NCBI GenBank assembly: GCA_945868195.1
Contig: CAMBLP010000075.1
Coordinates: forward strand, 1-10,383
Direction: 5' to 3'
Origin: Bordetella parapertussis
GTDB taxonomy: Bacteria > Pseudomonadota > Gammaproteobacteria > Burkholderiales > Burkholderiaceae_B
DNA length: 10,383 nucleotides
Both the position numbers and the translations under genes were made by a program. The notes beneath the pieces are model-generated. The model did not search any database and was not told the DNA's origin. It was given only the letters and a program-made list of their open reading frames with translations. How positions within the stretch are numbered: position 1 is the first letter of the stretch; each line of letters opens with the position of its first letter. Shown one piece after another: positions 7,775-10,383 of the stretch.

Positions 7775-7939
7775 ATGCGTACTTGGATGTGTTTAATTTG
7801 TGGTTGGATTTATGACGAAGAAACGGGCGTACCAGAGGAAGGGATTCCTGCCGGTACCCGCTGGGAGGATGTTCCGCCAAACTGGGTCTGCCCCGAATGT
7901 GGCGCGCGCAAAGAAGATTTTGAACTGATGGAGATCTAA
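7775..7939 (+). CDS. rubA: Rubredoxin
   Basis: This small redox protein of 54 residues is the usual rubredoxin size. It binds a single iron through four cysteines, all visible: Cys6-x-x-Cys9 followed by Gly-Trp, and Cys39-x-x-Cys42 followed by Gly. The rest fits the family: IYDEETG, PAGTRWEDVP, NWVCPECGARKEDF. It is a cytoplasmic one-electron carrier; its partner is not encoded nearby. AGAGAG just before the ATG serves as ribosome-binding site. It is the first gene of the rightward cluster, 9 bases before yqgE, and diverges from the thiD-like gene. A rubredoxin before yqgE and ruvX is a recurrent order in related betaproteobacteria, as I recall it. Confidence 0.95.
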   Translation: MRTWMCLICGWIYDEETGVPEEGIPAGTRWEDVPPNWVCPECGARKEDFELMEI

Positions 7940-7948
7940 GCCACGCCT

Positions 7949-8554
7949 ATGGACGCATCGCAACGCGCTGCCGGGACGGTGACCAACTTGTCGAATCAAT
8001 TTTTGATGGCGATGCCAGGCATGGTGTCGGGTGATTTGGCGGGAACGGTCATTTATTTGTGTGAGCACAGTCCCAAAGGCGCCTTAGGTCTTGTGATCAA
8101 TCGGCCTACGGATTTGAGTGTCGCGGGCTTACTTGAAAAAATCGACCTCAAGCTCGAAATCGCCCCTGGACAAAGCGCTGAGCAACATCCGGCATATTTG
8201 CCTGCGGTATTTTTCGGCGGTCCGGTACAGACCGATCGCGGCTTTGTCCTGCATTCGCCCGCAGGAGATTACAGTTCAAGCATCAAATTCGGACGCATGG
8301 CCCTGACGACCTCGCGCGACGTATTGGAAGCGGTTGCCCAAGGTCACGGACCACAACAGATGTTGGTCACGCTCGGCTACGCAGGATGGGGCGCAGGTCA
8401 ACTTGAAAATGAGTTAGCTCAAAATGCCTGGTTGAGCGTTGCGGCCCAAGAAAATATTATTTTCGATACGCCGCCCAAGGATCGCTACCCCGCAGCGCTT
8501 AAGCTGCTAGGCATCGATCCCGTCATGCTGATGGGTGCGGCAGGGCATGCCTGA
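7949..8554 (+). CDS. yqgE: YqgE/AlgH family protein (DUF179)
   Basis: This 201-residue protein has the UPF0301/AlgH signatures: TNLSNQFLMAMPGMVSGDLA near the N-terminus, VIYLCEHSPKGALGLVINRP, the FFGGPVQTDRGFVLH segment, and LGYAGWGAGQLENELAQNAW, ending with LLGIDPVMLMGAAGHA. Length is slightly above the roughly 185-residue core because of a short N-terminal extension before TNL. The biochemical role is not established; the name AlgH comes from alginate regulation studies in Pseudomonas. It is commonly found next to ruvX, as here, where the two genes overlap by 8 bases. The ATG nine bases after the rubredoxin stop is the first plausible start; I see no good Shine-Dalgarno. Confidence 0.93.
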   Translation: MDASQRAAGTVTNLSNQFLMAMPGMVSGDLAGTVIYLCEHSPKGALGLVINRPTDLSVAGLLEKIDLKLEIAPGQSAEQHPAYLPAVFFGGPVQTDRGFVLHSPAGDYSSSIKFGRMALTTSRDVLEAVAQGHGPQQMLVTLGYAGWGAGQLENELAQNAWLSVAAQENIIFDTPPKDRYPAALKLLGIDPVMLMGAAGHA

Positions 8555-8939
8555 AGAAACCTTGCTAGCCTTTGACTACGGCGCTAAAAAATTAGGCGTT
8601 GCGATGGGCAATACCTTGCTCAAACAAGCCCGTCCGCTGGACATCATTTTGGACGCGACGCGCGACGGACGTTTCACCCGGATCGAGGTTTTGCTCAAGC
8701 GCTGGCAACCTGAAAGACTGGTTGTGGGCTTGGCACTGGCGACAGACGGCGGCGAACAATATGCCAGTCAGCATTGTCGACGCTTCGCGCGTCAACTCGA
8801 AGGCCGATTTGGGTTGCCTGTTGTCTTGGTTGATGAGCGCGGCTCGAGCGTTGAAGCTCAAAAAATGACCGGGAATGAACCTGACGATGCGGTTGCCGCG
8901 GCCATCATTTTGCAGCGTTATTTTGATACGCTGACTTAA
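8547..8939 (+). CDS. ruvX: Putative pre-16S rRNA nuclease / Holliday junction resolvase-like protein YqgF
   Basis: This 130-residue protein has the RNase H-like YqgF fold, which in E. coli takes part in processing the 5' end of 16S rRNA. Motifs in order are LLAFDYGAKKLGVAMG with Asp10 as the first acidic residue, LVVGLALATDGGEQ (58-71), VDERGSSVEAQ with Glu97 (95-105), and DDAVAAAIILQRYF with Asp113/Asp114, so the acidic active site looks intact. I chose ATG at 8547, giving the usual MPEETLLAFD opening. An in-frame GTG at 8535 would only add four residues. The start lies inside the end of yqgE, an 8-base overlap that suggests coupling. The next gene begins 23 bases after the stop; no pyrR lies between, unlike the order I would expect. 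Confidence 0.93.
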   Translation: MPEETLLAFDYGAKKLGVAMGNTLLKQARPLDIILDATRDGRFTRIEVLLKRWQPERLVVGLALATDGGEQYASQHCRRFARQLEGRFGLPVVLVDERGSSVEAQKMTGNEPDDAVAAAIILQRYFDTLT

Positions 8940-8962
8940 ATGACTCTGGGCTCAACGAACGC

Positions 8963-9850
8963 ATGCGCAATCCCCAACTAAACCCACGCGGTGCGCTCAC
9001 ACATCTGCTCACAATCGAAGGGGTGTCGCGGCTGATACTGACGCGCATTCTCGATGAGACTGAGCTGTTTTTCACTACAACAGAAGGTGAGATTAAAAAA
9101 ACACCGCTCCTACAAGGTAAAAAAGTACTGGGTCTTGTGGATAAAGACATGGCTGAGCAGGCGCCAGCCGCCATGAGCGTATTTGAGCGCGCGGCGCAGC
9201 GTTTGTCCGCAGAGTGGCGCGGTATCCAAACATTACCTAACGACACGAAAAATTTCTTGGCGGATCTTGATGCGGATATTGTCGTGTTGCGCACCCAAGC
9301 CAGTGGCGCGCCGTATGTAATCGCACGACATGTTGGACCGCCTGTGCACATTATGAATGCGGGGGACGGCAGTCATGCCGATCCGCTTCGCGCTTTGATG
9401 GATATGTACACGATTCGCCGCGTCAAAAAAGACTTTGCGCATCTCACGGTGGTATTGGTGGGGGCAATCGCGCTTTCGCGTCAGGCACGTTCTTGTATTC
9501 ATGCGCTCACGACCTTGTGTGTCGCCGAAGTTCGCGTCGTCGCGCCCTTGACGTTATTGCCTGAGGGGCTCGCGCAGCTGGGTGTGCGTGCATATACGGA
9601 TTTGGTTCAGGGGCTACAGAACGCTGATGTTGTCATCGTTCTGGATCAGGAACCTTACGAGGGTGAAAATACCTACATCCCTTCGGTTCAAGAGTATGTC
9701 AAATGCTATGGGCTGACAGAGGAAAAGCTGGCGCATGCTCAAGACGATTGTTTGGTTCTTGGTGTGCAAGCTAATAGTATCGAGCAAGACGCTTTAGGTC
9801 TCGCGGTGCGCATGGCGGCGATGAGTCTTGTTGCGGGGGTGTTGGCATGA
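8963..9850 (+). CDS. pyrB: Degenerate aspartate carbamoyltransferase-like protein, predicted non-catalytic (PyrB homologue)
   Basis: This 295-residue protein is recognisably betaproteobacterial PyrB in its scaffold: HLLTIEGVSR, TPLLQGKKV, FERAAQRLSAE, ASGAPYVIARHV, NAGDG, LMDMYTI, SRQARSCIHALTTL, TLLPEGL, GLTEEKLAHA and AVRMAAMSLVAG. PyrB condenses carbamoyl phosphate with aspartate in pyrimidine synthesis. Its substrate-binding motifs are gone: the FENSTRTRTTFE loop reads DKDMAEQAPAAMSVFE (60-75), the SKGES loop is deleted or replaced (92-102), HPTQ reads DPLR (140-143), the LRLQ segment reads LDQE (227-230), and HPGP with its flanks is missing around 267-276. Arg110 and Arg173 persist. The frame is uninterrupted and other frames hold no lost motif, so this is substitution rather than frameshift. 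It is shorter than the usual 310 or more residues. It overlaps the next gene by ATGA. Confidence 0.85.
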   Translation: MRNPQLNPRGALTHLLTIEGVSRLILTRILDETELFFTTTEGEIKKTPLLQGKKVLGLVDKDMAEQAPAAMSVFERAAQRLSAEWRGIQTLPNDTKNFLADLDADIVVLRTQASGAPYVIARHVGPPVHIMNAGDGSHADPLRALMDMYTIRRVKKDFAHLTVVLVGAIALSRQARSCIHALTTLCVAEVRVVAPLTLLPEGLAQLGVRAYTDLVQGLQNADVVIVLDQEPYEGENTYIPSVQEYVKCYGLTEEKLAHAQDDCLVLGVQANSIEQDALGLAVRMAAMSLVAGVLA

Positions 9851-10383
9851 GGCTGCATATTCAGCAGGGCCGGGTGATCGATCCTGCAAATGGTATTGAT
9901 GCGCATACAGATGTCTGTATTGCCGAGGGCATGATTATCTCAGTGGGGGCGGTTCCGGAGGGCTTTGTCGCCGATCGAGTGCTCAATGCATCCGGAATGC
10001 TTGTGCTACCCGGTCTAGTGGATCTGTCTGCACGTGTGGGGCAGTCGGGCGAAGCCTCTGTTGCTGCCTTGGCCGGGGGCGTGACAAGTCTCGTGCAGCC
10101 ACCGGAGGCACAGTGGCATAAGCCGCTCGAGTCACAAGCTAAGGTTTACCGCCTAGGTGCGCTCACGGTAGATTTGGAAGGGCAGGCCTTGACGGAAATG
10201 GTGAAGCTTTCACAGACGGGTTGTGTGGGGTTTACACAGGGCAATATGCCTGTACAAGATACCGCAGTGCTTTTACATGCAATGCAATATGCGAAATCGT
10301 TTGACTTTGCGGTGTGGTTGCGACCTCAAGACGCATGGCTGTCGCGAGGCGGTGTCGTTGCGAACGGTGCGTATGCGTCGCGC
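9847..10383 (+). CDS. pyrC: Dihydroorotase-like PyrC' protein, non-catalytic type, N-terminal part
   Basis: The ATG at 9847 overlaps the preceding stop, and 179 codons stay open to the window edge. The start MRLHIQQGRVIDPANGIDAH and LPGLVDLSARVGQSG (54-68) mark the amidohydrolase/dihydroorotase family, with later GALTVDLEGQALTEM (104-118) and VWLRPQDAWLSRGG (156-169). Active dihydroorotases carry HxH after PGLVD; here it is SAR (61-63), so the metal site is absent. That is already true of the PyrC' class, which in Pseudomonas binds PyrB as an inactive structural partner. This copy also seems shortened after residue 68 and after VQPPEA (83-88), where relatives have additional residues. The C-terminal half is outside the window. 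It is probably co-translated with and bound to the PyrB homologue. Confidence 0.85.
   Translation, partial: MRLHIQQGRVIDPANGIDAHTDVCIAEGMIISVGAVPEGFVADRVLNASGMLVLPGLVDLSARVGQSGEASVAALAGGVTSLVQPPEAQWHKPLESQAKVYRLGALTVDLEGQALTEMVKLSQTGCVGFTQGNMPVQDTAVLLHAMQYAKSFDFAVWLRPQDAWLSRGGVVANGAYASR

Follow-up and report, generated by a model that had tools for sequence, protein, structure and literature searches.

In the class A aspartate carbamoyltransferase (ATCase) of Pseudomonas aeruginosa, an ATCase-pDHO dodecamer, the pseudo-dihydroorotase PyrC' is described as inactive yet required for ATCase activity (PMC7053772). The DHO-ATC complex of Aquifex aeolicus (PDB 3d6n) is described as active (PMC3880350). 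The "pseudo-ATCases" (UGTCase and others) are annotated as ATCases but are not; according to PMC4016543, they keep the STRT and HPTQ motifs, occur in other gene contexts, and include one shown to be an active carbamoyltransferase. For Burkholderia genomes, two ATCases are reported, a short HPGP form and a long HPLP form of about 430 residues, both of which keep their catalytic motifs; whether one of the two is catabolic is stated there to be unknown (PMC4581275).

The two chains encoded at the locus reported here, PyrB* and PyrC', are homologous to those of the P. aeruginosa enzyme, PyrC' appears inactive as it is there, and the genes are adjacent and usually overlap. The active PyrB of P. aeruginosa needs PyrC' (PMC7053772), whereas PyrB* lacks a recognizable active site and its relatives carry a separate long ATCase. 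The Aquifex enzyme is the best PDB sequence match of PyrB* and ranks fourth among its fold matches, but, unlike in that active complex (PMC3880350), both partners here are without catalytic motifs. As with the pseudo-ATCases, the usual source name for PyrB*, "aspartate carbamoyltransferase," is one that the sequences argue to be wrong; in contrast to the proteins described in PMC4016543, PyrB* has neither STRT nor HPTQ and still stands in a pyrB-pyrC' locus. The long ATCase is of the same type as that found beside a short PyrB in Burkholderia (PMC4581275), but the short form here appears dead or is gone. We file PyrB*-PyrC' as a pair of pseudoenzymes that descends from class A ATCase. Among the papers listed by searches of open PMC full texts, with subscription journals outside their scope, none describes a dead PyrB that is retained with PyrC'.

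The pyrB* frame and its locus

The window, that is, the whole stretch of 10,383 nucleotides analyzed, holds on its forward strand an intact frame of 295 codons and a stop at positions 8963 to 9850, as stated in an earlier note on this DNA; its protein is named PyrB*. Upstream on the same strand lie the conserved neighbors yqgE (7949 to 8554) and ruvX (8535 to 8939), which served as control genes, and a short frame just before yqgE (7775 to 7939) that we take to be a rubredoxin from its two CxxC pairs. The 23-base gap between ruvX and pyrB* (8940 to 8962) is the site of pyrR in relatives with canonical PyrB. Downstream, pyrB* ends and pyrC' begins within the same four bases, ATGA (9847 to 9850), and pyrC', whose product resembles dihydroorotase but lacks the HxH metal motif, runs off the window (9847 to 10383, forward strand).

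Alignment with Alcaligenaceae PyrB displayed all five motif changes that the earlier note had listed. The STRT carbamoyl-phosphate loop is replaced, with a small insertion, by DKDMAEQAPAAMS (9140 to 9178); the region of the former 80s loop (S..KGE) is shortened (9221 to 9274); HPTQ has become DPLR (9380 to 9391) and LRLQ has become LDQE (9641 to 9652); and the HPGP loop is deleted at approximately 9761 to 9775. One detail of that list needed correction, in that the lost 80s loop reads AAKGE or TAKGE in relatives and not SKGES. PyrB* therefore carries neither of the carbamoyltransferase signatures S[TR]RT and HPxQ, as given in the table printed in PMC4016543, nor the aspartate-binding RxQ and HP[LG]P, and the 80s-loop Ser and Lys that an active ATCase gives to the neighboring subunit are deleted. 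Its scores fell far below the cut-offs of the ATCase models NF002032 (155.5 bits; cut-off, 263) and TIGR00670 (93; cut-off, 236.95), and OTCace_N was the sole domain found in a Pfam search. The AF2 model of PyrB* (pLDDT, 76.4; pTM, 0.77) has the predicted fold of an ATCase, so the structure prediction that the note had proposed as a check came out on its side at the level of the overall fold: in a fold search with this model, the best 50 of 355 PDB matches (E ≤ 0.001) were all ATCases, with TM scores by query of 0.59 to 0.69. AF2 run on canonical PyrB gave a pLDDT of 51.4 from a shallow alignment, and the low-confidence N terminus of the PyrB* model is hence not used as evidence. By sequence, predicted fold, and tree position inside PyrB, PyrB* belongs to the ATCase fold family, and judged from its motifs, it has very probably lost catalysis.

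These losses are a family trait. Among the best 120 proteins listed, 58 relatives with at least 50% identity lack a PF00185 domain call (P0002 to P0058 and P0065), and Alcaligenaceae PyrB separates from this clade at about 48 to 52% identity. Counting the window and the 54 of these 58 that are full length (P0032, P0037, P0057, and P0065 are shorter), ST[RK]T, HP[TS]Q, RLQ, and HPGP occur in 0 of 55 members, versus 31 to 32 of 32 canonical relatives. S..KG[ED] is present in all 32 canonical relatives; in the PyrB* clade, KG[ED] occurs in six members (once as S..KG[ED]), at residue 41 or 260 to 264 and never in the 80s loop. At the level of loci, STRT, S..KGE, HPTQ, RLQ.ER, and HPGP are absent from all 30 PyrB* loci read, versus present in 26 to 28 of 28 canonical loci; the 30 comprise the window and 29 genomes chosen for a divergent score, of which 28 belong to the 56 genomes with both a long ATCase and a divergent short PyrB (see below) and the other is G067. 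Sequencing or assembly error was rejected as the cause of motif loss, which recurs in 54 database clusters and 29 genomes; the claim that a single sequencing error is no explanation thus stands, the same motifs being missing in 54 relatives. A scan of genome contigs with the single PyrB* sequence gave no matches. The clade alignment matched six loci, namely, five PyrB* loci, in three Burkholderiaceae metagenome-assembled genomes (62 to 77% identity), Zwartia panacis (50%), and Zwartia vadi (46%), and one canonical PyrB, in Pelistega indica. Two PyrB* proteins (G068 and G072; L092 and L093) have long Ala/Pro/His/Gln-rich inserts at the former active-site loops. One database entry (P0225) assigns an Achromobacter-type PyrB* to the fungus Rhizopus arrhizus, whose assembly was probably contaminated with bacterial DNA.

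The order yqgE-ruvX-pyrB*-pyrC' is common to the 30 PyrB* loci, with pyrC' cut off in the window. The four-base overlap of pyrB* and pyrC' fits 27 of them, 17 exactly as called and 10 with a longer-called pyrC' frame, and does not fit G120, G249, and G250. As expected of class A, the HxH metal motif is absent from PyrC' beside both PyrB* and canonical PyrB. Of what defines a class A holoenzyme, the gene arrangement provides an adjacent and probably coexpressed pyrB and inactive pyrC', and a catalytic PyrB is lacking by sequence. None of the 30 PyrB* loci has pyrR, which is present in 23 of 24 canonical loci without a long ATCase and in one of four canonical loci with it (G222; absent from G117, G226, and G227). 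When genomes were searched in full, PyrR was missing from eight of eight with PyrB* and matched in the canonical control G011. The one exception among the 24, G252 (L143), combines a canonical PyrB with neither pyrR at the locus nor a long ATCase. In G226 and G227 (L120 and L145), PyrC' lies about 11 kb from pyrB, so that the pair is separated yet both genes are kept.

A second, long ATCase and the distribution of the pair

A long ATCase of about 430 residues is encoded in each of the five PyrB* genomes recovered with the clade alignment and not in Pelistega. Within the genus of the window group, 26 of 32 genomes have a canonical-scoring PyrB (five of them read, the others classed by score) and six a divergent one, and the long ATCase (NF008853) exceeds its cut-off in exactly these six. 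There it keeps STRT, AKGES, HPSQ, RIQKER, and HPLP, three of which were recognized by pattern and two by eye. The search for a second ATCase suggested in the earlier note, run in relatives, thus yielded a copy with intact motifs in five PyrB*-carrying genomes and in G009, and from these relatives we infer that the window's own genome has one as well. A PyrC of the catalytic dimeric dihydroorotase family TIGR00856 was over the cut-off, by model score, in 19 of 19 genomes of both kinds.

Across the 268 genomes of the family, the long ATCase was found in 174 (E ≤ 1e-100; 172 over the cut-off). By score, the short PyrB of these 174 is canonical in 4, divergent in 56, and missing in 114; in the 94 genomes without a long ATCase, it is canonical in 85, divergent in 5, and missing in 4. 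PyrC' (NF005791) is present in 56 of 56 genomes with a long ATCase and a divergent PyrB, in 0 of 114 without a short PyrB, and in 89 of 89 with a canonical-scoring one, counts in which pyrB and pyrC' are neighbors that one deletion removes together and related genomes are not independent. The class thresholds are our own (short PyrB, E < 1e-85 for canonical and 1e-80 to 1e-29 for divergent; PyrC', E ≤ 1e-75), and at most eight short-PyrB and six PyrC' candidates were scored per genome, a cap that in large genomes may have let a diverged copy escape. The 56 comprise 28 aligned genomes, one read separately (G116), and 27 classed by score. The five divergent-scoring genomes without a long ATCase are counted apart: G067 is a 3.5-Mb assembly versus about 6.5 Mb in its relatives, the PyrB match reaches a contig edge in G099 and starts at one in G184, and G080 and G183 have short or split PyrB frames with pyrR present. 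Four genomes (G125, G198, G207, and G218) have neither a short PyrB nor a long ATCase by score and are either incomplete assemblies or pyrimidine auxotrophs.

An even sample of 399 genomes of the order contained 16 further genomes, outside the family, that matched the long ATCase (E ≤ 1e-100; 13 over the cut-off). None of these has a divergent short PyrB, 4 have no short PyrB, and 12 keep a canonical-scoring one (E of 6e-85 or better), so the long ATCase is permissive but not sufficient for the loss. Seven genomes of the sample without a long ATCase have short-PyrB scores of 1e-70 to 1e-20 (G273, G307, G351, G396, G474, G498, and G625), and further scores lie near 1e-75, all by score. The long ATCases (L054 to L059) carry about 80 extra N-terminal residues that are helix-turn-helix-like; one protein was scanned, with PF01381 at an E value of 0.12, below the cut-off. 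The long ATCase may be a DNA-binding, self-regulating enzyme, a possibility that would agree with the absence of pyrR.

Origins, selection, and retained residues

On a tree of YqgE and RuvX used as a species proxy (59 rows, the window and 58 genomes), PyrB* requires at least four changes, forced by the starred branches. The four origins are the window and Zwartia group of six; G009, which is sister to the canonical G011; G249 and G250; and 21 rows with Achromobacter. These 21 form a starred set together with G117, which has a long ATCase and a canonical PyrB; the 21 as one clade are not starred. The PyrB tree forces two changes, with the window group nested among the canonical PyrB proteins of its own genus, and is less reliable owing to its long branches; several distant canonical rows of the YqgE and RuvX tree are long as well. 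Neither tree includes G099 or G183, and the PyrB tree also omits G080. By the proxy tree, at least four lineages would have followed this path independently; by the PyrB tree, two.

For PyrB*, the 6 pairs of the window clade had a median pairwise dN/dS of 0.24 and the 36 pairs of the Achromobacter type one of 0.27, the latter sampled from 9 of 14 loci after five had been dropped, mostly for uncertain starts or long inserts. In these genomes, the control genes ruvX and yqgE gave 0.04 to 0.07. In five canonical genomes, the ratios were 0.015 for PyrB, 0.056 for PyrC', 0.059 for ruvX, and 0.095 for yqgE, with dS saturated; PyrB* thus exceeds canonical PyrB more than 10-fold, subject to that saturation. 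By codon comparison, PyrB* is under purifying selection that is relaxed and not neutral, at a dN/dS of about 0.2 to 0.3. An enzyme homologue without catalytic residues and under purifying selection is what a pseudoenzyme is defined to be, and PyrB* fits that description on present evidence; the stops or frameshifts and the dN/dS near 1 that define a pseudogene do not describe it.

The four PyrB* lineages have also kept the same residues. Among 196 columns conserved in canonical PyrB, parallel retention was significant in all six pairs of the four lineages (odds ratios, 7 to 18; P ≤ 3.2e-9; columns taken as independent). In reference numbering, 29 columns are kept in all five lineage groups, including P4, Q5, L6, L12, H14, E19, G20, NAGDGxH, R181, S182, H185, T189, R196, and P205. 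Best kept in every group are, among others, the first 20 residues, where 75 to 92% of 12 conserved columns survive; in the window, they belong to the N-terminal segment MRNPQLNPRGALTHLLTIEGVSRLILTRILD (residues 1 to 31; 8963 to 9055, forward strand). The NAGDGSH segment (9356 to 9376) keeps N, A, G, D, G, and H in all five groups, and the block RSCIHALTTLCVAEVRVVAPLTLLPEGLAQLG (residues 176 to 207; 9488 to 9583) falls in reference residues 181 to 220, where 50 to 100% of conserved columns are kept, depending on the group. The corresponding values are 0 to 31% for residues 61 to 100 (STRT and KGE), 0 to 36% for residues 261 to 280 (HPGP), and 0 to 15% for residues 281 to 300. Contrary to what the earlier note had supposed, the loss is not confined to active-site motifs: 105 of the 196 columns are kept in the window and Zwartia group. 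A need to maintain the fold core can explain part of the parallel retention; it would account less readily for the first 20 residues, a point of low weight given the poor AF2 result for canonical PyrB. In the P. aeruginosa ATCase, deletion of an 11-residue N-terminal extension is reported to have left assembly unaffected (PMC7053772), a result that would weigh against the assembly proposed below if that extension corresponds to the retained segment of PyrB*.

Explanations for the persistence of the pair

We consider it probable that catalysis passed to the long enzyme and that PyrB* is the dead descendant of a class A PyrB that binds PyrC' and is kept for a useful but dispensable noncatalytic task. 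The starting state would be pyrR with a class A pyrB and pyrC'. A second, long ATCase would be gained and take over catalysis, pyrR would be lost, PyrB would then lose its carbamoyl phosphate- and aspartate-binding motifs, and, as the last step, the pyrB*-pyrC' pair would be lost, a staircase order that we infer from the observed states. Before that last step, PyrB* would bind PyrC' in a class A-like, wholly noncatalytic assembly whose structural or regulatory role would favor its retention. Mutual dependence of the two chains has a precedent in P. aeruginosa, since PyrC' there is inactive yet needed for ATCase activity (PMC7053772). The absence of both genes from 114 genomes, the broken pair of G116, and the copies that have shrunk show that PyrB* can be dispensed with. 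They count against this explanation, as do the more than 10-fold higher dN/dS relative to canonical PyrB and, outside the family, the long ATCase found beside a canonical-scoring short PyrB in 12 of 16 genomes.

A variant of this explanation, which we regard as possible though short of probable, gives PyrC' a function of its own and leaves PyrB* as a mere chaperone or stabilizer under residual structural constraint. It draws on the co-occurrence of the two genes in 56 of 56 genomes and on the stronger constraint on PyrC', whose median dN/dS beside PyrB* was 0.15 in the window clade and 0.18 in the Achromobacter type (the window supplying only 537 PyrC' sites), versus the 0.24 and 0.27 of PyrB*. 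In a column analysis of PyrC' made with five reference rows and without the window, residues 1 to 48 and 241 to 384 were best kept, and the latter hold 50 to 100% of invariant columns per block in each lineage group. The absence of the HxH metal motif nevertheless makes an enzymatic role for PyrC' unlikely, and residues 97 to 120, the worst kept, are nearly gone in four of five groups.

More tentatively, the assembly with both subunits dead may have arisen at least four times in one family, each time with a second ATCase already present, and may have a shared noncatalytic job, such as the binding of metabolites or proteins for pathway regulation after the loss of PyrR. On such a repeated origin, it is conceivable, at the same low confidence, that the N-terminal segment, the NAGDGxH segment, and the Asp-domain core were kept each time for that job.

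Slow, relaxed decay, in which PyrB* has been jobless since the long ATCase took over and the pair is merely seen before its deletion, seems unlikely, although several observations point toward it. Both genes are gone, by score, from the 114 of 174 genomes with a long ATCase; the PyrB* copies of Zwartia are shrunken to 263 and 247 amino acids, and the pair is shortened in G009, where PyrC' has a large internal gap; G116, one of 29 genomes read that have a long ATCase and a divergent PyrB, has a broken pyrB*-pyrC' pair; and dN/dS, far above canonical values throughout, reaches about 0.33 (dN, 0.130; dS, 0.40) for the closest pair of the window clade, the window and G001. Against decay, the medians of 0.24 and 0.27 are not 1 at a median dS of 0.55 to 1.11, and separate lineages retain the same residues. 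Moreover, in neutral simulation of the window gene, copies with 0.2 substitutions per site carried a mean of 3.7 stops, and 21 of 1,000 were stop free (2 of 1,000 at 0.4), whereas each of the 30 aligned PyrB* loci holds one open frame. Stops in orthologues, which the earlier note would have read as the mark of a dying gene, are thus absent from the aligned loci, but the visibly broken pair of G116, read apart, tempers that result. Its preference for a selected pseudoenzyme over random decay is supported by relatives that share the altered motifs and by median ratios below 1.

That PyrB* is kept solely for the coupled expression of a downstream gene is very improbable: a 253-codon open reading frame does start inside the end of pyrC' in G001 and G003, but G034 has no same-strand frame of at least 100 codons starting within 1.1 kb downstream of pyrC', and a dN/dS below 1 would be left unexplained. 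Least credible of all is a neofunctionalized carbamoyltransferase acting on another substrate, like the purine-route pseudo-ATCases (UGTCase), for although ATCase-like paralogues with altered aspartate-binding motifs can do so, those described in PMC4016543 keep STRT and HPTQ, both lost in PyrB*, and the loop replacement differs between PyrB* lineages.

The family counts bear on the question, raised for Burkholderia (PMC4581275), of whether one of two ATCases is catabolic. No canonical-scoring short PyrB is found in 170 of the 174 family genomes with a long ATCase, so in these genomes biosynthesis would have to depend on the long form. In class A ATCase, as it is known, a dead subunit, PyrC', supports a live PyrB; here the live one would have died too, and the pair persists repeatedly. 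The graded natural series of states lets a possible function of the pair beyond catalysis be tested.
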